Assembly (NCBI GenBank): GCA_022826925.1
Contig: JAJDTX010000164.1
Coordinates: 62,001 to 126,000, forward strand
Length of the DNA: 64,000 nucleotides
Reading direction: 5' to 3'
Source: Bryobacterales bacterium
GTDB taxonomy: Bacteria > Acidobacteriota > Terriglobia > Bryobacterales > UBA6623
Under the pieces are notes generated by a model. That model made no database searches, was not told the origin of the DNA, and saw only the letters and a list, made by a program, of their open reading frames with translations. Shown here piece by piece: positions 2,727 to 63,067 of this stretch; position 1 is the first letter of the stretch; each line of letters starts with the position of its first letter. The position numbers and the translations under genes are program-made.

Positions 2727-4193
2727 TCAAGCAAGCATCCTGCGAATCACGTTGCCGCGAACATCGGTCAGCCGAAAATCGCGCCCTTGGTGGCGGAACG
2801 TGAGCTTGGTGTGGTCCAGGCCCAAGCAGTGCAGGATCGTGGCCTGCAGGTCGTTGACGGCGACCGGGTCCTCGGCTACCTCCAGGCCCAGCTCGTCGGT
2901 TTGCCCAACGGCACAGCCCGGGCTGATCCCGCCGCCTGCCAGCCACATGCTGAAGGCAAGCCTGTGGTGGTCTCGCCCGCGGCTTGCTTCACGGCTCGGA
3001 GTGCGGTCCTCGACCATCGGAGTCCGCCCGAACTCCCCGCCCCACACGACCAGTGTGGAATCGAGCAAGCCTCGTTCCTTCAGGTCGGCGACGAGCGCGG
3101 CGGACGGCTTGTCCGTGGCAAGGCACTCTTTCTCGATGCCTTTCTTGAGTTCGGCGTGATGGTCCCAGCTGGCGTGAACGATTTGCACGAAGCGCACGCC
3201 GCGCTCGACCATGCGCCTGGCCAGCAAGCAGTTGCGTCCGTACTGGGCGGTCTCCTTCTCGTTGACTCCGTAGGCGTCCAACGTCGCCTCCGACTCGCCT
3301 GAGAAATCGAGCAGTTCCGGGGTAGCCATTTGCATGCGGAAAGCCAGCTCGTAGGACGCGATACGCGCTTCGACCTCGGGATCGCCGCTCGCGGCTCCGT
3401 GCACTGCATTGAGGTCGCGCAATGCGTCGAGGCGGGCGCGCTGGGAGGCGCGGCTGTATCCCGGCGGATTGGACAAGTGCAGCACCGCGTCGCCAGTGCT
3501 GCGAAACGGGACGCCCTGATAGCTGGACGGCAGGAACCCGCTCGACCAAATGCCGCTTCCCGCGTCGGCGCCGCTGCCGGAGTTGAGCACGACGAACCCC
3601 GGCAGGTCGCGGGACTCGCTGCCCAGGCCGTAGGTGACCCAAGCGCCCATCGAGGGATGGCCGACAAACGGGGTGCCGCAGGCCATCATGAGCTGGCCGG
3701 TGTGGTGATTGATCTGGTCGGTCGTCATTGACCGGACCACGCACAGGTCGTCGACGCATCGGGCCGTGTGCGGCAAGAGTTCCGAGACGGCCAGCCCGCT
3801 CTCGCCGTGCCGGTCGAAGCGGCGCGGGCTGGCCCAGATCTTGGCGTCGGGCTTGATGAAGGCCAGTTCGAGGTCTCCAGCGAGCGAATCGGGCAGCGGC
3901 TGTCCGTCCCATCGACGCATCGACGGCTTGGGATCCAGGAGGTCCAGCTGGCTCGGCCCGCCAGCCTGGAAAAGGAAGATCACGTTTTTCGCGGTGGGCT
4001 CGAAGTGCGGCTCCCGCTGGCGGAGCGGATCGGCGGCCTCGGCGGGATGGCCGTCTTCGGCCAGAAGAAGCGAGAGCGCTATCGATCCGAGCCCGCAGGC
4101 CGAGTCCCGCAAGAATCGGCGGCGGTGAGAGAGCTGCACGTCAACTACAGGGCTAGTCCGACGCCGCGGCTGCGCTCCGTCACCCATGGCCAT
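2727..4193 (-). CDS. DUF1501 family protein, Tat-exported
   Basis: 488 residues. A twin-arginine signal (HRRRFLRDSACGLGS, about 23-37) is followed by a DUF1501 domain, a sulfatase/alkaline-phosphatase-like fold of unknown reaction. Family marks include VIFLFQAGGPSQLDLLDPKP, GGEFGRTP and the C-terminal FRLTDVRGNVI. DUF1501 genes usually follow a PSD1 (DUF1549/DUF1553) cytochrome-like gene; here none is adjacent, unlike the paralogue at 32621-34072. A TATGCT hexamer 8 nt upstream suggests a leaderless transcript. It is divergent from the HEPN/MNT module. Confidence 0.88.
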   Translation of the reverse strand: MAMGDGAQPRRRTSPVVDVQLSHRRRFLRDSACGLGSIALSLLLAEDGHPAEAADPLRQREPHFEPTAKNVIFLFQAGGPSQLDLLDPKPSMRRWDGQPLPDSLAGDLELAFIKPDAKIWASPRRFDRHGESGLAVSELLPHTARCVDDLCVVRSMTTDQINHHTGQLMMACGTPFVGHPSMGAWVTYGLGSESRDLPGFVVLNSGSGADAGSGIWSSGFLPSSYQGVPFRSTGDAVLHLSNPPGYSRASQRARLDALRDLNAVHGAASGDPEVEARIASYELAFRMQMATPELLDFSGESEATLDAYGVNEKETAQYGRNCLLARRMVERGVRFVQIVHASWDHHAELKKGIEKECLATDKPSAALVADLKERGLLDSTLVVWGGEFGRTPMVEDRTPSREASRGRDHHRLAFSMWLAGGGISPGCAVGQTDELGLEVAEDPVAVNDLQATILHCLGLDHTKLTFRHQGRDFRLTDVRGNVIRRMLA

Positions 4194-32400: not shown

Positions 32401-32624
32401 TGAAGGTGCTCGGCCGGTTGCCGGGAGAGGACGAGCGGGATATCCTTGAAGACCTGTACCGCGCCTACGCGGATCGGTTCCAGTCGGATCGAGACGCGGC
32501 CGAAGCGTATCTCGCGGTGGGCGACTCGCCGTGGGATCCGCGCTCCGACCCGCGGGAGCTGGCCGCCTACGCCGGGGTAGCCAGCCTCGTGCTGAATCTG
32601 GACGAAGCGGTGACGAAGCAATGA
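29469..32624 (+). CDS. PSD1 protein: cytochrome c-like, DUF1549, LamG, DUF1553
   Basis: 1051 residues from GTG 29469; the frame is open from 29391, but the signal peptide [20 protein letters not shown] begins here. Domain order: a planctomycete-type cytochrome c segment with CYSCH (residues 42-46); DUF1549 (about 130-350) with a second [11 protein letters not shown]; a LamG/concanavalin-like domain (about 445-620); DUF1553 (about 690-1000). PSD1 proteins pair with DUF1501 proteins and are thought to process polysaccharides or carry electrons outside the cytoplasm; the reaction is unknown. It overlaps the DUF1501 gene by 4 nt (ATGA), so the two are translationally coupled. Confidence 0.93.
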
Positions 32625-34072
32625 CGCCGGAAACCCACGCCCCGGAGACCGACACCCGGAGACACTTCTTCGGCAAGGCGGCCAGCGGAGTCGGAGCCAT
32701 CGCCCTGGCCCACCTGCTGGGCCGCGACCTGAACGCATCCGATGCGGCCAAGCCCGCCATCGGCGGCTTGGACGGCCTGCCGCACTACGCGCCCAAGGCC
32801 AAGCGCGTGATCTGGCTGTTCCAGTCCGGCGGTCCCTCGCAGCTCGAAACGTTCGACCCCAAGCCAGGCTTGGCCAAGCTGCGCGGGCAGGACCTGCCGG
32901 AGTCGATCCGGAAGGGCCAGCGGCTGACCACGATGACCTCCGGCCAGAGCAGCTTTCCGCTGGTCGAATCCGCGTTCGGCTTCCAGCAACACGGCGAATC
33001 GGGCGCTTGGATCAGCGACTTGCTGCCGCACACGGCCAAGATCGCCGACGACATCAGCATCGTGCGCTCGATGCATACCGATGCCATCAACCACGATCCC
33101 GCCGTCACGTTTTTGCAGACCGGGGCGCAGATCGCGGGCCGTCCCAGCATGGGCGCCTGGCTGAGCTACGGGCTCGGCAGCGAGTCCAGCGACCTGCCCG
33201 CCTTCGTCGTGATGATCACGCAGGGCACGGGCGGCCAGCCGCTCTACGACCGGCTGTGGGGATCGGGCTTCCTGCCGACGCGCTACCAAGGGGTCAAGTT
33301 CCGCTCGGTGGGCGACCCGGTCTTGTACCTGTCCGACCCGGCGGGCATCTCGCGCGACCAGCGGCGCACGTTCCTCGACGCGCTTGCCAAGCTCAACCGC
33401 AAGCAGTTCGAAGAGTACGGAGACCCCGAAATCGTCACGCGCATCGCGCAGTACGAAATGGCGTTCAAGATGCAGCGCTCGGTTCCGGAACTGACCGATC
33501 TGGCCGGCGAGCCCGAGCGCGTGTTCGACCTCTACGGAGAAGACGCCCGCCGCCCCGGCACGTATGCCTACAACTGCCTGCTGGCGCGCCGGCTGGCCGA
33601 GCGCGGCGTGCGCTTCATCCAGCTCTACCACCGGGGCTGGGACCAGCACGGCTCGCTCAAGCAGGGCATCCAGCGCCAGACCAAGACCACCGACCAAGCC
33701 TCGGCGGCCCTGGTGATGGATCTCAAGCAGCGCGGCCTGCTCGATGACACGCTCGTGGTCTGGGGCGGCGAGTTCGGGCGGACCGTCTACTGTCAGGGCA
33801 CGCTGACCGAGTCCGAGTACGGCCGCGACCACCATCCGCGCTGCTTCTCGATCTGGATGGCCGGCGGCGGCGTCCAGCCCGGCCAGACCTACGGCGCTAC
33901 TGACGAGTTCAGCTACAACATCACCGAGAACCCCGTCTCCGTGCATGACCTGCACGCCACGATGCTGCACCTGCTAGGGGTCGACCACACCAAGCTGACG
34001 TTCAAGTTCCAAGGGCGGAGATTCCGGCTCACCGACGTCCACGGCAACGCCGTCAAGCCATTGCTGGCCTGA
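32621..34072 (+). CDS. DUF1501 family protein, partner of PSD1
   Basis: 483 residues from the ATG overlapping the PSD1 stop. The Tat-like signal is [22 protein letters not shown]1501 motifs include [31 protein letters not shown] and the ending [16 protein letters not shown]. These belong to the alkaline-phosphatase/sulfatase-like superfamily but no reaction is established. It forms a two-gene operon with PSD1. The solitary paralogue at 2727-4193 shares the same plan. Confidence 0.93.
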
Positions 34073-37001: not shown

Positions 37002-38171
37002 ATGAAGATCGACCGCTTGGAAACCCGCCATTGCGATGCGGGGTGGCGTAATTACCACTTCGCCAAAGTCACAACCGGCGACGGCGTGGTGGGCTGGAGC
37101 GAGTACGACGAGGACTTCGGCTCCCCGGGAATCACGGCGACGATCGAGCGCTTGGAGCCGACCCTAATAGGCAAGGATCTCGGCAACCACGAGCGGATCT
37201 ACTCGGAGCTGTTCTGCCAGCTGCGACCGGCCGTCGACGGGGCGACCGGGCAAGCCTTCGCCGCGATCGAGAACGCCCTGCTTGACGCCAAGGCCAAGAC
37301 CTTGGGAGTCCCCTGCTACGCGCTCTTCGGGGGCAAGGTGCGCGACCGTATCCGGCTGTACTGGTCGCACTGTGCCACATGGCGCATCAATCACCCGGAG
37401 TTCTACCCGCCGGCGATCCACGACCTCGATGGCGTCCGCGGGATCGGCGCGGAAGCCAAGCAGAGGGGCTTCACCGCCTTGAAGACCAATATCTTCCAGT
37501 TCGGGGACGGGACCGTGCGGGGGTGGCGACCGGGCTTCGGCACGCCCTACGAGCCGGGCCGCAACATGGAGCGCTCCACGTTGCGGCAACTGCGCGCCCA
37601 CTTGGATGCCTTGCGGGACGGTGCAGGGCCGGACATGGACATCCTGCTCGACCTGAACTTCAACTGCGCCACCGAGGGCTATCTCAAAGTCTTGCGCGAG
37701 CTGCGCGACTTCGACCTGTTCTGGGCGGAGATCGACACGCGCAACCCGCGCGCGCTGCAACACATCCGCGAGCAAAGCCCCTGCCCCATCAGCTCGTGCG
37801 AAACGCTGATGGGCCTGCGCAACTTCCTGCCCTTCTTCCAACACGAAGCCGTTGACGTCGCGATTATCGACGCCGTTTGGAACGGTGTCTGGCAGAGCCT
37901 AAAGGTGGCCGCTTGCGCCGAGGCCTACGAGGTCAATGCGGCGCCGCACAACTTCTACGGGCACCTGGCGACGATGATGAACGCCCACTTCGTGGCCGCC
38001 GTGCCGAACCTGCGCATCATGGAGATCGACATCGACCGGCTGAGCTGGGATGCCGATATCTTCACCCACGTTCCGCCCATCGAGGACGGCCATCTGGTCG
38101 TGCCGGACCGGCCCGGCTGGGGCACCGAGCCCGACGAGGACGCGTTGCGCGATCATCCAGTGCGCAACTGA
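37002..38171 (+). CDS. Enolase-superfamily (mandelate racemase/muconate lactonising-like) enzyme, cytoplasmic
   Basis: 389 residues with no signal peptide. The N-terminal capping domain (1-120) precedes the TIM barrel. Metal ligands are visible as LLDLNFN (Asp), FWAEIDT (Glu) and SSCETLMG (Glu). A lysine is in LKTNIFQFG and the barrel-end His in AAPHNFYGH. These fit acid-sugar dehydratases of the superfamily; the substrate is unknown. TACGAT lies 9 nt before the ATG. It contrasts with the Tat-tagged relatives at 55.9-59.7 kb. Confidence 0.87.
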   Translation: MKIDRLETRHCDAGWRNYHFAKVTTGDGVVGWSEYDEDFGSPGITATIERLEPTLIGKDLGNHERIYSELFCQLRPAVDGATGQAFAAIENALLDAKAKTLGVPCYALFGGKVRDRIRLYWSHCATWRINHPEFYPPAIHDLDGVRGIGAEAKQRGFTALKTNIFQFGDGTVRGWRPGFGTPYEPGRNMERSTLRQLRAHLDALRDGAGPDMDILLDLNFNCATEGYLKVLRELRDFDLFWAEIDTRNPRALQHIREQSPCPISSCETLMGLRNFLPFFQHEAVDVAIIDAVWNGVWQSLKVAACAEAYEVNAAPHNFYGHLATMMNAHFVAAVPNLRIMEIDIDRLSWDADIFTHVPPIEDGHLVVPDRPGWGTEPDEDALRDHPVRN

Positions 38172-38201: not shown

Positions 38202-39500
38202 TCAAGCCGCACCCGCACCAGCGAGCGCGGCCTCGATGGCGTCCGCCGTGCGCGGCAGGCCCGCGCTCATCACGCGACAGCCATCGCCTGTCACCTCGAC
38301 CATGTCCTCGATGCGGATGCCGACGCCTTCCTCCGGCAGGTACAAGCCGGGTTCGATGGCGAGCACCATGCCCGGTTCCAAGGCGCGACCGGGCGGCGTT
38401 GGATCATGCACGTCCAGTCCGACATGGTGCCCGATGGCGTGCGGCAGGTAGGGATCCACGCCACGGGGCGCTCGCTTGCGCAGGACGCCCTCGGCAACCG
38501 ATTCGACGCTGTTCCGAGCGGGCCCGCCCAGCACAGCACCGGGCTGCACGGCCGCAAGCGCCTGCTCGTGCGCCTCGAGCACGGCTTCGTACAGCCGCCG
38601 CTGCTTCTCGCCGAACCGTCCGCTTACCGGGATGCTCCGCGTGATGTCGGCGGCATAGCGAGCCCTTTCGCCGCCAGCGTCAATAAGCAACATCTGCCCG
38701 TTCTCCAGCCGGCCGGAGTTGCGCTGGTAGTGCAAGATCGTCGCATGAGGCCCCGCGGCCACGATCGGCGCGAAAGCCAAGCGTTCGCAGCCGGCCCGGA
38801 AGGCCCCTCCAATCAATCCGGCCGCGACTTCGCGCTCGGTCGCCCCATCGGCGACTCTGGCCCAAGCATCGCGGAAGCCCACTTCGGTGGCTTCGACGGA
38901 CGCTTGAATCAGGGCAACCTCGGCAGGCGACTTAATGCTGCGCAGCGCGGCCAGCGGAACTCGGATGTCGCGGGTCGGCTCGCGCCCGGCCGCTTCCACC
39001 AAACGCTCGTGCCGCGAGCGCGCCTGGGCGTCGTCCGCCGGCCGCGCTCCGGCCAATCCAGCCAATCTGTTCCGATCCCGCAAGAGGGCGCGCAAGGTCC
39101 GACGGAACTTCGACTCGGTCAGGACCTCGGCAAACCCCAGATGGCCGGCGTCCTCCGGCTCCAAGCTTGGCCCATGCCACTCTTGGGAGCGGCCGGCGGG
39201 GTCGGCCAAGAACAAGATCTCGCGATACGGCAGGCCCCCGCGGGCCGGAGCAATGAGCAGGGCCGCGCCCGGCTCTTCGTGTCCGGTGAGGTAGAAGAAG
39301 CTGCTCTCTTGGCGAAAGCCCGTGAACCCGGACTGGCCTTCCGATTCGGTCGAGCCAAGCAGCGCGATGACACCGCGACCAATCGCCTCGGCCAGCGCTC
39401 GCCGACGCTTGCCATATTCGTCGGCAGCAGTCGCGCCGGCGGCGCCCGAGGAAGGCAGAGCCGCGCAAGCAGCCAAAAACGCCCTACGAGTCCGCAGCAA
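38202..39500 (-). CDS. Xaa-Pro aminopeptidase (M24B), Tat-exported
   Basis: 432 residues from TTG (minus 39500). The frame is open to 39569, but this start gives a compact Tat signal MLRTRRAFLAACAALPSSG and has TACGCT 6 nt upstream. The N-terminal creatinase-like domain (about 20-190) precedes the pita-bread domain. All five metal ligands are seen: LIDAGGERARYAADIT (two Asp), AIGHHVGLDVHD (His), AIEPGLYL (Glu) and RIEDMVEV (Glu). It should remove N-terminal residues before proline from periplasmic peptides. Confidence 0.9.
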   Translation of the reverse strand: MLRTRRAFLAACAALPSSGAAGATAADEYGKRRRALAEAIGRGVIALLGSTESEGQSGFTGFRQESSFFYLTGHEEPGAALLIAPARGGLPYREILFLADPAGRSQEWHGPSLEPEDAGHLGFAEVLTESKFRRTLRALLRDRNRLAGLAGARPADDAQARSRHERLVEAAGREPTRDIRVPLAALRSIKSPAEVALIQASVEATEVGFRDAWARVADGATEREVAAGLIGGAFRAGCERLAFAPIVAAGPHATILHYQRNSGRLENGQMLLIDAGGERARYAADITRSIPVSGRFGEKQRRLYEAVLEAHEQALAAVQPGAVLGGPARNSVESVAEGVLRKRAPRGVDPYLPHAIGHHVGLDVHDPTPPGRALEPGMVLAIEPGLYLPEEGVGIRIEDMVEVTGDGCRVMSAGLPRTADAIEAALAGAGAA

Positions 39501-39506
39501 CCCTTC

Positions 39507-39512
39507 AGCGTA
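39507..39512 (-). promoter_or_regulatory. TANNNT hexamer (TACGCT) of Xaa-Pro aminopeptidase gene
   Basis: TACGCT on the minus strand is exactly 6 nt before TTG 39500. The plus-strand TATGAT of the RNase H gene (39552-39557) lies nearby, giving a divergent promoter pair. Confidence 0.4.
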
Positions 39513-39571
39513 GCCGAGGACGGAGCCGCAATCCGCATCGGATCGCGGCGCTATGATTGGGGGCAACATCG

Positions 39572-53991: not shown

Positions 53992-54141
53992 CAGGGCTGC
54001 TTCGACCAGAAGCTGCTAATCTACCCGAACGGCTCCGAGCCCGCAGCCGCCCGGAATTACGCGAGGGCGCTAGCGAGGTCGGCGAGGAACGACTACCGGA
54101 TCGTCGCCATGATCGCCGCGGCCATCCACAGCCCGCTGTTC
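53992..54141 (+). pseudogene. DUF1585 C-terminal remnant (DUF1592/DUF1588 family)
   Basis: Frame 1 here translates to CFDQKLLIYPNG, ARNYARALARSARNDYRIVA and MIAAAIHSPLFRE. This matches the end of DUF1585 proteins, which typically read KLLTYALGRG, then DYRFSSLI and AIVTSPPFR. The upstream body of the gene is absent: secA begins on the other strand directly before it. It is a decayed or deletion-truncated gene. DUF1592-DUF1588-DUF1585 proteins are PSD-family partners of DUF1501-like proteins. Confidence 0.6.
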
Positions 54142-54165
54142 CGCGAATCGACAAGTCCAGTCAAC

Positions 54166-55584
54166 ATGACCACTTCCAAGATCTGTCTCGCGCTGGCCGC
54201 GTGCTTGCTCGCACCAATTCAGACTGTCGCCGCCAAGCCGGACATTCTGTTCATCGCCATTGACGACCTCAACGACTGGGTCGGCCCGCTGGGCGGTCAC
54301 CCGCAAGCGAAGACACCCAACATCGACCGCCTCGCCGCGCGCGGGATGACCTTCACGAACGCTCATGTCACGGCACCGCTGTGCAACCCGTCGCGCGCGT
54401 CACTGATGAGCGGGATGCTGACGTCGTCCTTCGGCGTTTACGTCAACAACCAAGACTGGCGGGAAGCTCCTCTTCTGCAAGGCAAGCCCGTGCTGCCACG
54501 CTTCCTGCAGAGCAACGGCTACCGGACTCTGGGAGGCGGCAAGCTGTTTCACGCCGCGACGCTCATCCCGATACAGTTCTACGGCCTGCTGCCGCGGCGC
54601 GGATTCGACGACTACTACCCGGCTCCGAACCGGCAGCTTCCGGACGAGATCCGGCCGATCGGCCGCCCGATCAACAACAACCCCGGGTTTATCAGCGGGT
54701 TCTTCGACTGGTCGCCGGTGGCCGCCGAGGACAGCGCGATGGGGGATGGCCAAGTCGTCGCGTGGGCAGGCCGTCAATTGCGAGCGGCGCACGGCAAGCC
54801 CCTGTTCCTCGGAGTCGGCATCTACAGGCCGCATATCCCGTGGTACGTGCCGCAGGCATACTTCGACCAGCATCCGCTCGATCGCATAGAGCTGCCAGCA
54901 ACGGTGCCGGACGACTTGGGCGATGTTCCGGGATCCGAAAGGTACGCCAGGAACCAGAGGGTCCATCGGTGGGTCCTTGAGACCGGCAATTGGAAGGCGG
55001 GGGTTCAGGCGTACCTAGCGAGCATCTCCTTCGCAGACGCGATGGTGGGCCGGCTCCTAGACGCACTGGATGCGAGCAATCGCGCGGAGGAGACCGTGAT
55101 CGTCCTGTTTTCTGACCACGGCTACCACCTAGGCGAGAAGGACCAGTGGCGCAAGTACACCCTCTGGGAGGACTCGACGCACGTCCCGCTGATCGTGCAC
55201 GCGCCCGGGATTACGGAGCCGGGAAGCCGATCTGACGCACCGGTCTCAACGCTGGACATCTATCCGACCCTGGCAGAACTCGCGGGTCTGGGCCTCCCGG
55301 CGCACCTAGAGGGGCACAGCCTGTTACCGCTGCTGCGGGATCCAAGTGCCGAATGGCCTCACCACGCGATCACGACGTATCGCTTCGGCAACCACTCCGT
55401 GCGAACCCGACGCTACCGCTACATCCGCTACGAGAACGGCGACGAGGAGCTCTACGACCACGACGAAGACCCGCACGAGTGGCGGAACCTCGCATCGTCA
55501 GCCGACCATGGCGACATCAAGGCACGTCTGAGATCCTTGCTCCCGCAGGTCAACATCGAGCCGATCACCGCTACTTGGAGGTAG
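54166..55584 (+). CDS. Sulfatase (iduronate-2-sulfatase-like), secreted
   Basis: 472 residues from ATG 54166, giving signal MTTSKICLALAACLLAPIQTVAA. An earlier ATG at 54109 lies inside the DUF1585 remnant. DILFIAIDDLNDWVG holds metal aspartates, CNPSRASLMSG is the formylglycine motif, and LFSDHGYHLGEKDQW is the iduronate-2-sulfatase-like block. It closely parallels 19308-20771 in motif order and ending (RYRYIRYENGDEELYDH), but here codon use matches the surrounding genes. It should desulfate a polysaccharide or small sulfate ester in the periplasm. Confidence 0.92.
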   Translation: MTTSKICLALAACLLAPIQTVAAKPDILFIAIDDLNDWVGPLGGHPQAKTPNIDRLAARGMTFTNAHVTAPLCNPSRASLMSGMLTSSFGVYVNNQDWREAPLLQGKPVLPRFLQSNGYRTLGGGKLFHAATLIPIQFYGLLPRRGFDDYYPAPNRQLPDEIRPIGRPINNNPGFISGFFDWSPVAAEDSAMGDGQVVAWAGRQLRAAHGKPLFLGVGIYRPHIPWYVPQAYFDQHPLDRIELPATVPDDLGDVPGSERYARNQRVHRWVLETGNWKAGVQAYLASISFADAMVGRLLDALDASNRAEETVIVLFSDHGYHLGEKDQWRKYTLWEDSTHVPLIVHAPGITEPGSRSDAPVSTLDIYPTLAELAGLGLPAHLEGHSLLPLLRDPSAEWPHHAITTYRFGNHSVRTRRYRYIRYENGDEELYDHDEDPHEWRNLASSADHGDIKARLRSLLPQVNIEPITATWR

Positions 55585-55919
55585 CGCCGACCAAGCCGGA
55601 TCATTCGGCGAAGCGCGCGACTGCTCCCAGCATCCGCTCTCGTGGAAAGATCTGGCACGGGTGACGGCCGGTGTGCAGGCGGAGTCTGATTCAGGCATTG
55701 ACAGCGGCGGCGTTGGCCCGTAACCTGTGATCCCGGAGGGGCGAGGGCGCGCAATGGAGCGAGGAATCGCTCGACCAGCATCGGCAATCGCGCCAAGCAG
55801 GGCGGGTCGACGGCACGGCCTCGAGCCGGCCAGACGGTCACCGTCGCTATTCGATCACGAATCCCGAAGCGGACTCTAGAGACTCGAGCCACCCGCCAAT
55901 GATTGGAGAGCACTGCGGC
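55585..55919. other. 335-nt gap upstream of dehydratase cluster
   Basis: No gene is supported. A GGAGAG Shine-Dalgarno at the right end serves the next gene. No clear TANNNT promoter or terminator is seen. Confidence 0.4.
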
Positions 55920-57215
55920 ATGGGACAACGCGCACAGACCGGCACGACGACTTCTCCACCGATGAGTCGGCGGGATCTTCTCGGCTTCGCGGCGGTTCTC
56001 GCCGGCTCGGCGGCAGCGGCTGCCGCGCAGCAGCAATGGCCGGTCGAAACCGATCTTGAGATCACGGACGTCCGCGTCGTGAGGACCCGTCCGAAGAACC
56101 CCCTGCCTGCCTACGAGCCGACCCCGGGCTCGTACTGGGCGACTCGCGAGGCGGCCCGGCCGATCGAGGTCCATCCCGAGTACACCGGCAAGCGCGGCCC
56201 GGGATCCAAATGGATGCCGGACCGGTCCCTCGGCGCCGTCACTGTCGAGATCAGCACGAACAAGGGATTGAAGGGCTACGGCCGGGCCGGCTCCGCCGGG
56301 GGCCCGTTCGTCGTTCCTGCCCTTAAGAAGCTGTTGGTCGGCAAGAACCCGCTGGATGTCGAGCGCCTCTGGGACGTGATGTGGCGGGCGACGCTGTTCT
56401 ACGGACGCGCCGGGGCGGTGGTGCACGCGATCAGCGGCGCGGACCTCGCTCTGTGGGATCTGGTGGGCAAGGCATTCGGAGTCCCCGTCTACGACCTTGT
56501 CGGCGGCAGGACTTGGGAGCGCATACCCTGCTACGCCACCGGGAACGATGTCGAGCAAAGCCTCGAATTCGGCTATACGAAGGTCAAGCTGGCACTCCAG
56601 CACGGCCCGCCCGACGGCCGCGAGGGGCTGAAAAAGAACGTCGAGCACGTCAAGCGGACGCGCGAGCTGGTGGGCCCGGACGGCGAGATCATGATCGACT
56701 GCTGGATGGCGCTGTCGGAAGCCTACACGATCCAACTGGCCGAGGAACTGGAACCGTACCGGGTGTACTGGCTGGAAGAGGTCTTGATGCCGGACGAGTA
56801 CAAGGGGTTCGGGCGCCTCAACTCCCAGATCACTTCCACGTTCCTGGCGACCGGCGAACACGAGTACACGCGCTACGGTTTCGGCCGGCTGGCCCATTAC
56901 GGGGCGGTCGACATCTGGCAGCCGGACATCAACTGGTGCGGCGGCATGAGCGAGATGAAGAAGATCGGCGCCATGGCCCTGGAGCAGGGGATTCCGGTGA
57001 TCCCGCACGCGGGCGGCGCTACCGACTGCATCCACTACCTCGCGGCCCAGCCCCAGATGACCTGGGCCGAGACCACGATTCCCGCTCCTGGCGGCCCGCC
57101 GGAGGTCTACGAGATGTTCGCCGAGCAGCGCCTCATGAGCCGTGGGCCGGAGGGCGTGTACATCCAGCCCCCGGAGGAGCCTGGATTCGGCTGGAATATC
57201 GAGGTGGCGGACTGA
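55920..57215 (+). CDS. L-rhamnonate dehydratase-like enolase-superfamily enzyme, Tat-exported
   Basis: 431 residues from ATG 55920 (GGAGAG 9 nt upstream; ATG 55899 and 55962 are alternatives). Tat signal SRRDLLGFAAVLAGSAAAAAA. After the capping domain, the barrel has KVKLALQHGPPDGREGL, IMIDCWMAL (Asp), YWLEEVL (Glu), ATGEHEYTR (Glu), WQPDINWCGG (Asp) and IPHAGG (His). These are the metal ligands and His-Asp dyad of RhmD-type dehydratases, which make 2-keto-3-deoxy sugar acids. The active site looks intact despite the export signal. First of three tandem relatives. Confidence 0.85.
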   Translation: MGQRAQTGTTTSPPMSRRDLLGFAAVLAGSAAAAAAQQQWPVETDLEITDVRVVRTRPKNPLPAYEPTPGSYWATREAARPIEVHPEYTGKRGPGSKWMPDRSLGAVTVEISTNKGLKGYGRAGSAGGPFVVPALKKLLVGKNPLDVERLWDVMWRATLFYGRAGAVVHAISGADLALWDLVGKAFGVPVYDLVGGRTWERIPCYATGNDVEQSLEFGYTKVKLALQHGPPDGREGLKKNVEHVKRTRELVGPDGEIMIDCWMALSEAYTIQLAEELEPYRVYWLEEVLMPDEYKGFGRLNSQITSTFLATGEHEYTRYGFGRLAHYGAVDIWQPDINWCGGMSEMKKIGAMALEQGIPVIPHAGGATDCIHYLAAQPQMTWAETTIPAPGGPPEVYEMFAEQRLMSRGPEGVYIQPPEEPGFGWNIEVAD

Positions 57216-57260
57216 AACGGGGCCCACACGGCCCACGGCCACCCAAGGGAGGATTTCTCA

Positions 57261-58505
57261 ATGCATCGTCGTAGCTTTCTGAAGCTCGCACCGCTAGCGG
57301 CGGCAGCGCCGCACGCGCTCGCCGCAGCGCCCGTCGTGGAGGACGACCTCGAGATCACCGGCGTGCGCCTGGTGACCATGCGCCCGACGCGTCCGGTGCC
57401 CACATACGAGCCGGCGCCGGGATCGTGGTCGACCGGAGGCGTGGAGGTCGCGAACCCGGTCTCGATCTACCCGAAGTACAAGCCGATGCGCAGCCTGTTC
57501 CGACCTTCCGGGCCGAGGGTTGGAAGCTTCTGGGTGGAGATCGACACCAACAAGGGCGTCAAGGGCTACGGCCCGGGCGGACCCGGCGGAGGCGTAATCG
57601 TCGAAGATCACCTGACCAGGCTGCTGATGGGCGAGAATCCGCTCGACATTCAGCGGCTGTGGGACATCATGTGGCGCTCGACGATGTCGTACGGCCGCAA
57701 GGGTGTCACGGTCAACGCGATCTCCGCCGTCGATATCGCCCTGTGGGACATCGCCGGCAAGGTGCTGAACGCGCCGGTTTGGCGGCTTCTGGGCGGGCGG
57801 ATCCAACCGCGGATCCCGTGCTACTGCACGGGTAACGACATCGAGCAGCACGTGGAGTTCGGCTACACGCGGCTCAAGCTGGCACTTCCCTACGGACCCG
57901 CCGACGGAAGGCCGGGAATCCGCAAGAACGTCGAACTGGTCAAGCGCGCCCGCGAGGCGGTAGGCCGCGATGGCGACGTGATGATGGACTGCTGGATGGC
58001 TCTCACCGAGCGCTACACCCTGGAACTGGCCGAGGCGTTCGAGCCGTACAACGTCTACTGGATCGAAGAGGCGCTGCCGCCGGACGACTTCGAGGGCTTT
58101 GGCCGGCTGCGCCAGCAGATCACCTCGACCCGGATCGTCACCGGCGAGCACGTCTACACGCGCTACGGATTCCGACAGTTGCTGCGTGTCAACGGCGCAG
58201 AGATCTGGCAACCGGACATCCACTGGTGCGGCGGCATGAGCGAGCTGATCAAGATCGCGCACATGGCAGCCGCGCACGACATTCCGGTGATTCCGCACGG
58301 CGGGGGCTCGCGCGACTCGGTGCATTTCATCTACGCCACGCCGAACTCGCCGTGGGCCGAGATGTTCATGCCGGCACCCGGCGGACCCGACGTGGTGTAC
58401 GAGCGCTACGAAGAGGACAACAACCTCACGCGGGGACCCGAGGGGATCTATACCCGTCCGTCCGACGGTCCGGGCTTCGGCTGGGATCTCGAGCCCGCGG
58501 GGTGA
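57261..58505 (+). CDS. L-rhamnonate dehydratase-like enolase-superfamily enzyme, Tat-exported (paralogue)
   Basis: 414 residues. Tat signal MHRRSFLKLAPLAAAAPHALA. RhmD-like motifs are KLALPYGPADGRPG, VMMDCWMAL, YWIEEALPPDDF, VTGEHVYTR, WQPDIHWCGG and IPHGGG, so metal ligands and dyad are kept. It shares both the N-terminal LEITGVRLVTMRPTRP region and the barrel with its upstream neighbour; the two look like a tandem duplication that has since diverged. A GGGAGG Shine-Dalgarno precedes the ATG. Substrate unknown. Confidence 0.85.
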   Translation: MHRRSFLKLAPLAAAAPHALAAAPVVEDDLEITGVRLVTMRPTRPVPTYEPAPGSWSTGGVEVANPVSIYPKYKPMRSLFRPSGPRVGSFWVEIDTNKGVKGYGPGGPGGGVIVEDHLTRLLMGENPLDIQRLWDIMWRSTMSYGRKGVTVNAISAVDIALWDIAGKVLNAPVWRLLGGRIQPRIPCYCTGNDIEQHVEFGYTRLKLALPYGPADGRPGIRKNVELVKRAREAVGRDGDVMMDCWMALTERYTLELAEAFEPYNVYWIEEALPPDDFEGFGRLRQQITSTRIVTGEHVYTRYGFRQLLRVNGAEIWQPDIHWCGGMSELIKIAHMAAAHDIPVIPHGGGSRDSVHFIYATPNSPWAEMFMPAPGGPDVVYERYEEDNNLTRGPEGIYTRPSDGPGFGWDLEPAG

Positions 58506-58510
58506 TTTCC

Positions 58511-59743
58511 ATGACCGAGATCACACGCCGGCACCTCCTCGGCCGGGCGTCGGCCGCGGCGCTCGGATCTTGCCTTCCGGCATTCCTGGCGGCACAGCAG
58601 CGGAACCAGCAGTCCCGGGTGCGCATCACCAAGGTCGAGACCTTCCGGATCCGCATCCCGCCCGAGGACGGCCAGCCGCCCGACCCGTTCCGCATCTACG
58701 GGTACCAAGTCAACCGGGTCCACACCGATTCCGGGATCGTCGGCACGTCATTCGTGCGGGGCGACACCGAGCTCATCGAGCGCTGGGCCAAGCCCACGCT
58801 CGAGGGCGAGGACCTGTTCGCCGTCGACCGCCACGTCCAGCGGCTCCAGATGCAGCGCGGCGAGTCCGGGGTGCAGGGTTGGTCAGGCGTCGAGCATGCC
58901 ATGTGGGACGCCATCGGGCGCGCGGCCGGACTGCCGGTAGCGCGGCTGCTGGGTGGCTACCGCGACCGATTGAAGGTGTACCGGACCTGCGTGTTCCCGG
59001 GCAAGCAGGACCAGTCCGACGTGCCGTACGAGACCCAAGCCGAGTACGCTGTCCGGCTCAAGGAGGCCGGGTACGGGGCCATGAAGGTACGCGCCTGGCG
59101 GCCCCGGCCGATGGACGACGTGGAGATGCTGGCCGTCGCGCGCCAGGCTGTCGGCGAGGACTTCGAAATCATGTTCGACCGGACGGCGGTGCGCCCGGGT
59201 TGGGTGTGGGACTACGACACGGCCCTGCAGGTGGCCCGCGGCATGGAGCGCTACAACGCGCGCTGGCTAGAGGAGCCGTTCGACGGCAACGACCTCGAGA
59301 GCCCCGCACGCCTGGCCGCCGAGGTCGACATTCCGATTACCGGAGGAGAGCTCGGCAAGGGCATTCACCAGTTCCTGGCGTTTCTGACGCACAAGACGTA
59401 CGACGTGCTACAGCCGGACACGCGCATCTGCGGCGGCATCCTGACCGCCCGGAAGATCAGCATCCTGGCCGAGGCATTCCACGTCCCTTGCATCCAGCAC
59501 GGCACGCAGGGCCTCTCGCTGGCTGGCTACATCCAAGCGGGATGCGCCATGCCCAACTGCGACTACCAAGAGATGATCGGCCAGCCGAACTTGCCGGAAG
59601 AGCAATGGTCGCCGGCGCTGCGGATCCTGCGCACGCCACATGTCTTCGAGATCGAGGACGGCACCGTGCTACTCCCGGACCTGCCCGGTCTGGGCCTTGA
59701 CATCGACGAGGAGGCAATCGAGGAATACCGGGTCCGAGCTTGA
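58511..59743 (+). CDS. Mandelate racemase/enolase-superfamily dehydratase, Tat-exported
   Basis: 410 residues from ATG 58511, 5 nt after the previous stop. Tat signal TRRHLLGRASAAALGSCL. A different subgroup from its neighbours: LKEAGYGAMKVRAW (Lys), FEIMFDRTA (Asp), WLEEPFDG (Glu), PITGGELGKGIHQ (Glu), VLQPDTRICGG (Asp) and CIQHGTQG (His). Ligands for Mg and the barrel-end His are present, as in galactonate- or gluconate-type acid-sugar dehydratases. It completes a three-gene operon-like run. Confidence 0.84.
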   Translation: MTEITRRHLLGRASAAALGSCLPAFLAAQQRNQQSRVRITKVETFRIRIPPEDGQPPDPFRIYGYQVNRVHTDSGIVGTSFVRGDTELIERWAKPTLEGEDLFAVDRHVQRLQMQRGESGVQGWSGVEHAMWDAIGRAAGLPVARLLGGYRDRLKVYRTCVFPGKQDQSDVPYETQAEYAVRLKEAGYGAMKVRAWRPRPMDDVEMLAVARQAVGEDFEIMFDRTAVRPGWVWDYDTALQVARGMERYNARWLEEPFDGNDLESPARLAAEVDIPITGGELGKGIHQFLAFLTHKTYDVLQPDTRICGGILTARKISILAEAFHVPCIQHGTQGLSLAGYIQAGCAMPNCDYQEMIGQPNLPEEQWSPALRILRTPHVFEIEDGTVLLPDLPGLGLDIDEEAIEEYRVRA

Positions 59744-59823
59744 CCGGGCGGCGAGCGGTCCCGAGCGATGACAACAGGGCGGCAAGTCTCGCAATCGCCA
59801 GGGCCTGGCCGGCCCGATCCGGA

Positions 59824-60642
59824 CTACTTGCGACGTCGCTTCTGATCAAGCATCCAGGCAATCACTTCGGGGTCTTCGTACACACGCCTGGCGATGGCGT
59901 GCCCTACGCCCGCATACTCCGTGTAGCGCGGATTGCCGGAGCTGCCTTGGATCGCGGCGACCATTCGCCTGGCAAGAGGCGCCGTGCTGAGGTGGTCCGT
60001 CTCCCCCTGGAACAGCCACACACCCATCCTGGCCAGCACAGGGGCGTCTTCAAGCACGATCGTGGCGGAGCCGGACACCGGTGCGACGGCGGCAAACCGC
60101 TCGGGATGGAGCGCGGCGTATCGGATAGACCCCTCTCCACCCATCGAAGAGCCCGTGATCACCACTCTGTCCGTGTCGACCGCAAATTCCGCGATGAGGG
60201 CATCAATCAACGATGTGATGTGATCCTCTGCATCGGGGACCGGATCGCGCCCGTGACGCTCCAAGCGCCAGCTGGACTGCACGGGGTCCGCCGGTATGGG
60301 AGACCAGATCTTACCCCGTGGGCACCGTGGAAAGGCTACGAGTGCCGGAAACCGCTCAGGGTGGTTGCGGACGTGCTGCACAAGGGGCTGCCTGTTGAAG
60401 CGCTCGGTCAGAGCATTCCCGTTGTTGTCGCCGTTCCCTCCTCCGCCATGCAGGTAGACAATCAGCGGCCAGCTCTTCGAGCCGTCGTAGTCCGGCGGCA
60501 CATATAACCCTGCCGTACGCTCCGCGCCCTCCACCGTGAATGCGAAATTCACGAAGCCCGTGCTGGCGGATTCGTCATCAGCAGCGTGAGCGCTGGCGCC
60601 CATCAACACCAATAGCAATAGAACTGTGTACTTGCTTCTCAT
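59824..60642 (-). CDS. Secreted esterase (COG4099/PHB depolymerase-like)
   Basis: 272 residues with a Sec signal (MRSKYTVLLLLVLMGASAHA). Oxyanion region IVYLHGGGGNGDNNGN, nucleophile elbow GSSMGGEGS, acid FQGETDH and His AGVGHAIAR. It belongs to the same esterase group as 40142-41098 and 62093-63067 but lacks their EF-hand. Convergent with the dehydratase run and close to the mannonate dehydratase-like gene, so possibly part of the same polysaccharide-processing group. Confidence 0.83.
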   Translation of the reverse strand: MRSKYTVLLLLVLMGASAHAADDESASTGFVNFAFTVEGAERTAGLYVPPDYDGSKSWPLIVYLHGGGGNGDNNGNALTERFNRQPLVQHVRNHPERFPALVAFPRCPRGKIWSPIPADPVQSSWRLERHGRDPVPDAEDHITSLIDALIAEFAVDTDRVVITGSSMGGEGSIRYAALHPERFAAVAPVSGSATIVLEDAPVLARMGVWLFQGETDHLSTAPLARRMVAAIQGSSGNPRYTEYAGVGHAIARRVYEDPEVIAWMLDQKRRRK

Positions 60643-60829
60643 GGTTGCCTCTTCAATCGGCCGTCCAGCGTAACCCGACGCCTTGGTGCCGTGGGAACCC
60701 CTTGTAGGTTCCCGTCATTCTACCGCCAGATACGAGAATCTAGTTGATGCGATGTACTCGGCAGTCGCAGCGATATCGGTCGCATAAGCGACCGCAGCGA
60801 CGATAGGATCGATGCGAGAGGAGGGTGCC

Positions 60830-61993
60830 ATGAAGGTGACAAGGAGACGTCTGGGGAATGCGGCGCTAGGCGGGGCCGCGATTGGACTGGCACCCGCCGC
60901 AGCACAGCAGCTGCCCCGCTGGGACCCCTTGGTGCCGGGCACGGAAGCGCCAAGGGCGAAAGAGTGGATGGACCGGCCCGATACAACGCCCCTGCAGTTG
61001 GCGCCGGCAGATCCCTTTGCGGCAGGTGCCGGAATCGGAATCGGGCATCGCTTCCCGCCGCAGCCCGAGCCGGAGGTTTATGACTTCTATCGGGCGTCAG
61101 GTATCGAATACGGCAGCGTGCTGGCGCGCTTGGGAGAAGTCAACTACGACTGGATGGCTCGCATGAAGGAGCGGATGGAGGAACGCGGCGTCCGTTTGCT
61201 GAATGTCAACGTCGTCGGACTGCATTGCGATCCGGTCATCGTCTTGGGGCTCTCCGGTGTCGAGGAGAAGCTGGAACTCTACCGTCAGTTTCTTCGCGAT
61301 GCAGGCAAGGCAGGAATCCCGTACACAACGTATGGGCACATGGCGAACCTGCGCCTGCGGTACGGGGTGACGGCGCGCGTTCCGACGCGCGGGCAGCGGG
61401 CGCGCCAGTTTGATGCGAGGGTGGCAAGCAGCTTTCCTCTCTCGCACGACCGCATGTACTCGGAGGACGAGATCTGGAAGTCATTCACGAGGTTTGCCAA
61501 CGCCGTCGTTCCTGTCGCTGAAGAAGCCGGAGTGCGCATCGGTCTTCATCCTGACGACCCGCCCTTGCCGTCCCTTGGCGGCGTGGCGCGGGTTTTTCGC
61601 AACTACGAGGGCTACAGGCGCGCGCTCGAGATCACCGACAGCCCAAACTTCGGATACTGCTTCTGCATGGGCACGTGGGCGGAAGGAGGCGAGAGCACGG
61701 GCAAGTCGGTGATCGACATGATCCGCGAGTTCGCGCCCCAGGGAAAGATCTTCAAGGTGCACTTTCGCAACGTGGACGGGCCCATGCCGCGGTTCACCGA
61801 AACCTTCGTCGACGACGGCTACATCGACATGATCGAGGCGCTCAGGGAACTGCGAAAAGCAAACTTCAACGGCGTCATCGTGCCCGACCATGTTCCGGGA
61901 GGAAGACCCATGGGCGACAGCAACACGGCCTACACGGTGGGCTACATGAGGGCATTGAGGGATGTCATCAACCGGGAGTTCGCGCAGGGATAA
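60830..61993 (+). CDS. Mannonate dehydratase (UxuA)-like enzyme, Tat-exported
   Basis: 387 residues from ATG 60830, with AGGAGGG 5 nt upstream (an ATG at 60812 is less likely). Tat signal TRRRLGNAALGGAAIGLAPAAA. UxuA-type TIM barrel: NVNVVGLHCDP, GVRIGLHPDDPPLPSLGG, FCMGTWAEGG, KIFKVHFRNVDG, DGYIDMIEAL and IVPDHVPGG. These supply the metal-binding His, Cys, His and Asp of mannonate dehydratases. Mannonate dehydratase is normally a cytoplasmic uronate-pathway enzyme, so the export signal is unusual. The substrate is unproven. Confidence 0.85.
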   Translation: MKVTRRRLGNAALGGAAIGLAPAAAQQLPRWDPLVPGTEAPRAKEWMDRPDTTPLQLAPADPFAAGAGIGIGHRFPPQPEPEVYDFYRASGIEYGSVLARLGEVNYDWMARMKERMEERGVRLLNVNVVGLHCDPVIVLGLSGVEEKLELYRQFLRDAGKAGIPYTTYGHMANLRLRYGVTARVPTRGQRARQFDARVASSFPLSHDRMYSEDEIWKSFTRFANAVVPVAEEAGVRIGLHPDDPPLPSLGGVARVFRNYEGYRRALEITDSPNFGYCFCMGTWAEGGESTGKSVIDMIREFAPQGKIFKVHFRNVDGPMPRFTETFVDDGYIDMIEALRELRKANFNGVIVPDHVPGGRPMGDSNTAYTVGYMRALRDVINREFAQG

Positions 61994-62080
61994 CTGCAGG
62001 CGATCCTCCTAGCGAACGGTTCCGCGCTTCGCCCTTTGGACCCCAAGTCCAAGGCTGTCCCGCTCGCTGCTCCGGGACGC

Positions 62081-62086
62081 TATACT
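62081..62086 (+). promoter_or_regulatory. -10 hexamer TATACT of EF-hand esterase gene
   Basis: TATACT ends 6 nt before GTG 62093 and 21 nt before ATG 62108, favouring the GTG start by the pattern seen elsewhere. Confidence 0.4.
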
Positions 62087-62092
62087 CCGGCC

Positions 62093-63067
62093 GTGCCCCG
62101 GTTTCCGATGCGACTGTTGATCGTTGGTCTTGTGTCCCTTGCATGCGCTTTCAGTGCCTATGCGGATGTAGAGAGCGAACTCCAGAGGATGCTCGCCAGT
62201 CACCCGGAGGCTGATGCCAACGGAGACGGCGCTCTGACCGAGGACGAAGCCGCCAATTACATCTTCAAGACGAGACAACGCGGCCGCATGAACCGCGGGC
62301 CGGGCATCCGAAACCGCCATCTGATCGACGCGTACGAAGCGCGCTCGCATGGGTCCATGCCGTACCGCCTCATGAAGCCGCTTCACCTAGAACCCGGCAA
62401 GCGCTATCCGCTGATAGTCAGTCTTCACGGCTCCGGCGGGGTAGGCGACGACAACCTGAGCAATCTCCGGTTCTGGAACGGAGTCATGGCACAGCCGGAA
62501 TGGCGGCGGAAGTACCCGAGCTTCGTGCTCGTCCCGCAACGAAGGCCCGGAGGAATCTGGGGGCCGAAACCCGATGTGCCCGGAACCGAGGATTTATTTG
62601 TCCGCGACGATTTGACCGGGGCTTTCGAGATCATCGAACTGCTCCGAGAGGAGTTTCCTATCGACTTGGATCGCATCTACGCGCTGGGCTCTTCAGGGGG
62701 CGGTGCGGGCACTTGGAACATCGTTTTCGCTCGACCAGACCTGTTTGCAGCGGCGATTCCCGTTTGCGGGCGATTCAATCCCGCCTACGCGTCCAAATTG
62801 GCGCAGCTGCCCATCTGGGTGTTCCACGGCGATGCCGACCCGCTCATCTCGGTCGAGTTTTCGCGCAGCGCGTTTGGCGCCCTGCGTGAGGCTGGAGGGG
62901 ATATCAAATACACCGAACTGCGGGGTGTCAAGCATGCGTCGTGGATCCAGGCCTTCACCTACGCCGGCGACGACGAGTCGAAGGGATACGTGACCCGGCT
63001 TGGAAACGAGAAATCCGATCCCACCTCCGACATCTGGGAGTGGCTCTTTGCGCGCAGGAAGAACTAG
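62093..63067 (+). CDS. Secreted COG4099-type esterase with EF-hand (paralogue)
   Basis: 324 residues from GTG 62093 (TATACT 6 nt upstream; ATG 62108 also possible). Signal MPRFPMRLLIVGLVSLACAFSAYA. EF-hand-like loop DANGDGALTEDE, then NRGPG and a hydrolase domain with SLHGSGGVGDDNLSNLRFWN, nucleophile elbow GSSGGGAGT, acid FHGDADP and His RGVKHASW. It mirrors 40142-41098 along its whole length, including the DPTSDIWEWLFARR ending. The elbow is GSSGGG instead of GSSMGG. Confidence 0.84.
   Translation: MPRFPMRLLIVGLVSLACAFSAYADVESELQRMLASHPEADANGDGALTEDEAANYIFKTRQRGRMNRGPGIRNRHLIDAYEARSHGSMPYRLMKPLHLEPGKRYPLIVSLHGSGGVGDDNLSNLRFWNGVMAQPEWRRKYPSFVLVPQRRPGGIWGPKPDVPGTEDLFVRDDLTGAFEIIELLREEFPIDLDRIYALGSSGGGAGTWNIVFARPDLFAAAIPVCGRFNPAYASKLAQLPIWVFHGDADPLISVEFSRSAFGALREAGGDIKYTELRGVKHASWIQAFTYAGDDESKGYVTRLGNEKSDPTSDIWEWLFARRKN

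Follow-up and report, generated by a model that had tools for sequence, protein, structure and literature searches.

Conserved twin-arginine signal peptides on a cluster of sugar-acid-dehydratase-type enzymes in a Bryobacterales genome

In the 64,000-nucleotide stretch of a Bryobacterales genome analysed here (GCA_022826925.1, contig JAJDTX010000164.1, positions 62,001 to 126,000; hereafter the window), four clustered genes, P0001 to P0004, encode three enolase-superfamily enzymes and one UxuA-like enzyme, each with a predicted twin-arginine translocation (Tat) signal peptide. Their sequences indicate that these signals are real and conserved, and that they are carried by intact sugar-acid-dehydratase-type enzymes. 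As the most likely function we propose sugar-acid dehydration outside the cytoplasm, an explanation to which we give a probability of roughly 0.55. P0001 to P0004 would fold and take up metal inside the cytoplasm and would then be exported, already folded, via the Tat system; once outside, the three enolase-superfamily enzymes and the UxuA-like enzyme would dehydrate aldonic- or uronic-type acids to 2-keto-3-deoxy acids, which would then either undergo further conversion there or be imported. Four parts of this scheme are inferred by us for these proteins: their export, their catalysis, their substrates and the uptake step. The cluster would represent a local grouping within a much larger exported Bryobacterales set.

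Results

Tat signals on the four enzymes

All four genes were found where the initial annotation had placed them, with the following features (pLDDT, predicted local distance difference test score):

55899..57215, + strand: P0001, RhmD-like enolase-superfamily enzyme, domains PF02746 and PF13378
55962..56030, + strand: P0001 Tat signal peptide from Met22, SRRDLLGF; likely cleavage before QQQW (by eye)
57261..58505, + strand: P0002, RhmD-like enolase-superfamily enzyme with the widest conservation in the cluster, PF02746 and PF13378
57261..57335, + strand: P0002 Tat signal peptide, residues 1-25, pLDDT < 50
58511..59743, + strand: P0003 (ATG at 58511), enolase-superfamily enzyme, assigned to superfamily level, PF02746 and PF13378
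58511..58594, + strand: P0003 Tat signal peptide, MTEITRRHLLG
60812..61993, + strand: P0004, UxuA-like enzyme, PF03786
60830..60904, + strand: P0004 Tat signal peptide from Met7, KVTRRRLG

Each N-terminus (MSRRDLLGFAAVLAGSAAAAAAQ for P0001 from Met22, MHRRSFLKLAPLAAAAPHALAAA for P0002, MTEITRRHLLGRASAAALGSCLPAFLAAQ for P0003 and MKVTRRRLGNAALGGAAIGLAPAAAQ for P0004 from Met7) has an RR-x-hydrophobic motif followed by an uncharged stretch rich in alanine and then by a cleavage-like end. Signals were called with a rule-based detector that requires this motif, a start codon at most 32 residues upstream, and then a 12-residue uncharged stretch with a mean Kyte-Doolittle value of at least 0.85. This threshold applies to window genes and P0002 orthologues; it was 0.8 for the UxuA and DHDPS N-termini of the genome itself, and 0.7 for the best matches of P0004 and of the contig C45 DHDPS protein and for the survey of the relatives G008 and G059. 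The detector was positive for all four enzymes and for 13 of the 49 window genes overall; among 980 shuffled heads it called 53 (5.4%).

Searching 84,980 species genomes with P0002 gave 80 retained loci; most come from Bryobacterales and other Acidobacteriota, and a few records bear the labels Verrucomicrobia, Opitutae or Acidimicrobiia. The arginine pair is present in 79 of the 79 orthologues that have an N-terminus (identity 59-99%): 69 of the 80 are detector-positive, 10 have RR by eye, and L097 is without its N-terminus. In a 34-row alignment the columns of R3 and R4 of P0002 hardly vary, unlike the remaining leader. Among the P0004-type best matches from 30 relatives, RR is likewise found in 29 of 29 with an N-terminus (24 of the 30 are detector-positive and one is cut off). 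N-terminal codons give omega < 0.4 where computable, and the host genome has one TatC gene (C29:4807-5463, E 1.7e-61). The Tat signals claimed for all four enzymes are thus borne out by the detector and by conservation of RR among P0002 and P0004 relatives.

Active sites, fold and family membership

For the metal ligands we take the positions known from the respective families: D267/E293/E320 in P0001, D243/E269/E296 in P0002, D224/E255/E281 in P0003 (numbering includes one residue before Met) and H246/C285/H317/D359 in P0004, the last aligned with 1tz9 and 3ban. The barrel-end pairs of P0001, P0002 and P0003 are D343/H370, D319/H346 and D304/H331, respectively. Aligned to E. coli RhmD, P0001 and P0002 keep its three metal ligands, GEH motif and Asp-His dyad, and D243, E269, E270, E296, H297, D319 and H346 of P0002 are invariant across 34 aligned sequences. 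The alignments confirm that metal ligands and barrel-end His residues are kept, as had been proposed, and a check for substitutions at the metal-ligand and Asp/His positions found none. In the alignment, neither P0001 nor P0002 has an equivalent of the E. coli RhmD segment containing His29, which we take to be the capping-loop residue numbered His33 in the literature.

An AlphaFold2 model of P0002 (34 sequences, pLDDT 89.1) scores below 50 over residues 1-25 and becomes confident at about residue 30; its best solved fold is L-rhamnonate dehydratase 2oz3_C (template modelling score 0.80, 38% identity, E 9e-40). P0003 has as nearest solved relatives 4hcd and 1rvk, both called isomerase/lactonizing enzyme, and bears a K-x-R motif on the second strand. 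The P0004 structure model is poor (mean pLDDT 46); its sequence exceeds the PF03786 gathering score (129.5 versus 23.7 bits) over residues 216-361 only.

By sequence, P0001 and P0002 are RhmD-like and P0004 is UxuA-like, and equivalog tests place none of them inside these families. The label of RhmD- or UxuA-like dehydratases therefore stands at family level and falls at equivalog level, where P0001, P0002 and P0004 lie under the cut-offs and P0003 lies far under all of them, passing no NCBIfam equivalog cut-off (best AraD_Arch, 132.5 versus 650 bits). Because curated cut-offs are missed, the substrates probably differ from those of RhmD and UxuA.

Tat-like signals are common in Bryobacterales

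The initial annotation had treated the signal as special to the cluster, pointing to a related enzyme without one at 37002-38171 (P0005). The signal is indeed missing from P0005. This enzyme is not representative of the genome, however, because 20 of its 36 PF13378 matches are Tat-like (19 by detector and L008 by eye); among the five UxuA-like open reading frames (ORFs), three are detector-positive, a fourth shows RR on visual reading and the fifth, on C8, is without a signal. With 20/36 and 4/5 tagged and the tags scattered on a tree, the signal cannot be called a speciality of the cluster. Untagged PF13378 matches include a truncated copy (L144) and a classical enolase (L151). Rulings by eye dropped an in-domain detector match (L015), added L008 and the second UxuA ORF on C161, and judged L315 (G059) false. 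In G008, of the same genus, 41 of 44 matches were fetched, with 20 detector-positive and 3 more having RR by eye; in G059, of the same order, 28 of 29 matches gave an ORF, and 14 were detector-positive, L315 among them. Tagged dehydratase-type enzymes are ordinary within the order Bryobacterales.

A tree of 34 enolase-superfamily proteins from the genome plus E. coli RhmD (35 rows, 20 tagged) needs 10 changes of the Tat label, near the shuffled mean of 11.6 (108 of 500 shuffles were as low), so that tagged and untagged paralogues are interspersed; 4 changes or more are required by well-supported branches. This pattern implies that tags were gained or lost repeatedly. Tagging is commoner in the enolase superfamily than among other window genes (20/35 versus 9/45, Fisher p = 0.0009; p = 0.002 with 19/35), the comparison group being 45 genes from one window and not a random sample.

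Further leaders were seen on other genes. Two tandem overlapping UxuA-like ORFs (L152 1276-3686, - strand, G000:C161) have RR leaders, one of which contains a lipobox-like LLAGAC, and an oxidoreductase-like ORF with a Tat-like leader (L151 2195-3001, + strand, G000:C88) lies beside the classical enolase gene. Within the window, Tat-like leaders occur on two DUF1501 proteins (2727-4193, - strand; 32624-34072, + strand) and on an M24 peptidase of aminopeptidase P type (38202-39569, - strand), a usually cytoplasmic family. One of 15 PF08450 lactonase matches has a Tat-like start; these were not used as support.

A double-tagged gene pair

Sugar-acid dehydratases yield 2-keto-3-deoxy sugar acids, and L-2-keto-3-deoxyarabonate dehydratase uses a substrate of this type in a following step of non-phosphorylative sugar-acid breakdown. 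On contig C45 of the genome (L171 5958-8163), a Tat-tagged RhmD-like gene that shares 44% identity with P0002 adjoins a Tat-like-tagged DHDPS-family gene, whose product (N-terminus SRRQWLAALALAPGLRALAAEP) has L-2-keto-3-deoxyarabonate dehydratases as nearest solved relatives (7c0c, E 1.2e-20, Lys aligned). The pair is present in 14 of 21 genomes (our own and 20 relatives), and both N-termini show RR and a hydrophobic stretch by eye in all 14; the order-level relative G056 (L197) has the two genes in reversed order. Three of the seven genomes without the pair have a tagged RhmD-like gene and four have a distant untagged enzyme only. Our genome has nine DHDPS matches; besides that on C45, N-termini were resolved for six of the other eight, all of them lacking a signal. 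The aldolase N-termini that were judged do not include L160, L162 and L166-L168, for which the frame chosen gave another ORF. Elsewhere (L181 5049-8851, - strand, G000:C163), an HpcH/HpaI-family protein with the export-like leader MTRKQFLATPLMAAGAAAAA is followed directly by TRAP genes: Pfam identifies DctP and DctM, and the ORF separating these two is DctQ-like judging from its position. A profile search of the genome for PF02615 dehydrogenases returned none.

Gene neighbourhood and conservation of the cluster

P0001 and P0002 are separated by 45 bases and P0002 and P0003 by 5, gaps so short that the three look like one transcription unit; P0004 is set apart from them by a reverse-strand esterase. 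The neighbouring genes are:

54109..55584, + strand: sulfatase (PF00884) with a Sec-like N-terminus, upstream of the cluster
59824..60642, - strand: secreted-looking esterase between P0003 and P0004; not present at this place in G009 and G004
62036..63067, + strand: secreted-looking alpha/beta hydrolase, downstream; accompanies P0004 in G001 and G007

Whole-gene NG86 omega values of 0.02-0.11 (15 pairwise comparisons, six relatives) show that the cluster genes are under purifying selection. We inspected the layout in 12 relatives. The complete set of four dehydratase genes is grouped in G002, in G009 and, with a contig break inside P0002, in G005. Partial clusters occur in G004 (P0001-P0003-P0004), G010 (P0001-P0003) and G013 (P0001-P0002), and in G006 P0001 and P0003 flank a P0002 remnant of 65 residues (L286 6909-7094, G006:C109), which indicates a recent loss from the cluster. 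P0004 is found with the downstream hydrolase in G001 and G007 and alone in G008, and G012 and G016 have at most a P0002-type gene, G012 adding a distant neighbour. L024 and L025 likewise contain P0002-P0003 pairs, and in L055 P0002 is preceded by P0003-type genes. Since locus and genome handles overlap (L021 = G002, L022 = G009, L023 = G010, L026 = G013, L027 = G008), their counts were not added. The four-gene cluster is limited to close relatives. The breakdown module suggested earlier is upheld in part: an extracytoplasmic sugar-acid role is compatible with everything seen, but the module itself is weak, being confined to close relatives and missing its esterase in G009 and G004.

A 227-residue, 5'-truncated near-copy of P0003 lies elsewhere in the genome (L144 473-1153, - strand, corresponding to G000:C7 at about 49.1-49.7 kb), and similar truncated P0003 copies occur in G008 (L343 and L349). 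A mobile element was considered and rejected: 55899-62000 has no near match in plasmids, and the P0002 protein matched 1479 plasmid records, all below 60% identity.

Discussion

Exported enzymes of this kind might catalyse another superfamily reaction, such as epimerisation or cycloisomerisation, or act on lactones, oligosaccharide ends or anhydro-sugars. The missed curated cut-offs would fit such a role, as would the absent counterpart of the RhmD capping-loop His segment and the unassigned isomerase/lactonizing enzymes (4hcd/1rvk) nearest to P0003 with its K-x-R motif. We nonetheless consider it rather unlikely, given that P0001 and P0002 share a fully supported four-row clade with E. coli RhmD and find their best structural matches in L-rhamnonate dehydratases, and that P0004 keeps all four UxuA metal-ligand positions. 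It is more doubtful still that the grouping is incidental, a product of gene duplication and the high Tat base rate of the order with no pathway behind it. The base rate is certainly high (20 of 36 enolase-superfamily matches and 9 of 45 other window genes), and the cluster is limited to close relatives, has suffered losses such as that in G006 and lacks a wider neighbourhood; against this, the enolase superfamily is tagged above other window genes, P0001 to P0003 are closely spaced, and the four genes stay together in G002, G009 and, allowing for the contig break, G005. Lastly, the RR N-termini could be non-functional signals on enzymes that remain cytoplasmic, in that the signals are predictions by a detector with a 5.4% rate on shuffled heads. 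This appears highly improbable, as RR is invariant while the N-termini diverge, residues 1-25 are unstructured ahead of a complete domain, the N-terminal codons evolve as coding sequence and TatC is present.

Several observations weigh against sugar-acid dehydration outside the cytoplasm. Curated RhmD, GalD and UxuA cut-offs are all missed by P0001 to P0004: the RhmD equivalog NF011968 (cut-off 393 bits) by P0001 at 275.7 and P0002 at 309.1, and the UxuA models by P0004 at 109.3 versus 191 (NF003027) and 75.4 versus 199.55 bits (TIGR00695), the untagged UxuA-like protein of the same genome also scoring under the UxuA cut-offs (149 and 103 bits). In five close P0004 orthologues RR is present and an Arg falls within the hydrophobic stretch, which makes for a weaker signal. 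The window cluster contains no carrier or importer gene, and across the 80 P0002 loci no neighbourhood conservation was found beyond the close-relative cluster. The supporting C45 pair lies outside the window on another contig, and 6 of the 14 pair genomes (our own and five close ones) have no ATG, GTG or TTG near RR in the DHDPS gene (CTG, or an ATG far upstream). Among the 30 best matches of the C45 DHDPS protein in 247 Acidobacteriota genomes, seven have RR, our own included (L206-L210, L212, L213); the six foreign ones have no enolase-superfamily gene within about 1.5 kb, and L211, L214 and L215 have an enolase neighbour but no signal. The HpcH/HpaI-type leader on C163 has RK, not RR.

Tentatively, and with somewhat less than even odds, Bryobacterales may possess an extracytoplasmic non-phosphorylative pathway that would combine Tat-exported dehydratases, exported DHDPS-family and perhaps HpcH/HpaI-type enzymes, and TRAP carriers importing small oxo-acids, its cytoplasmic steps having been moved outside many times. 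The double-tagged pair of dehydratase and keto-deoxy-acid enzyme makes such an exported pathway directly testable. Carbon-degrading enzymes of the enolase superfamily are described as cytoplasmic. If those studied here are exported and active, a common order of Acidobacteriota would employ a central carbon-degrading superfamily extracytoplasmically, which would point to uptake or sharing of keto-deoxy acids instead of their production inside; this would change genome-based prediction of sugar-acid use and would account for some of the large Tat cargo in these bacteria.

Within the open-licence PMC literature searched, we found no description of a Tat-exported enolase-superfamily or UxuA enzyme, which is weak evidence of absence. 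In SAR202 (Chloroflexota), enolase-superfamily paralogues have expanded for non-phosphorylative sugar-acid catabolism, and the large paralogue set, the proposed parallel sugar-acid pathways and the L-rhamnonate dehydratase annotations resemble the Bryobacterales set (PMC10444878, PMC6946804). The word 'periplasm' occurs 0 times in either paper, 'tat' 0 times in PMC10444878, and 'secreted' and 'signal peptide' 0 times in PMC6946804. With D-mannonate dehydratase UxuA (PF03786; PDB 1tz9, 3ban, 4eac), P0004 shares the C-terminal barrel half and the four metal-ligand positions, and it differs in its Tat signal and in matching poorly across the N-terminal half. L-2-keto-3-deoxyarabonate dehydratase (PDB 7c0c, 3fkk) is the nearest solved relative of the C45 DHDPS protein, which has the aligned Lys, scores only about 26 bits per 100 residues and adds a signal-like N-terminus. 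The closest known system for P0001 and P0002 is E. coli RhmD (b2247; PDB 2oz3, 3fxg, 2p3z), their best match in both sequence and structure; the fold (modelled for P0002) is shared, as are the three metal ligands, GEH and the Asp/His dyad, whereas P0001 and P0002 have a different capping-loop segment and add a Tat signal to an enzyme that in E. coli starts without one.

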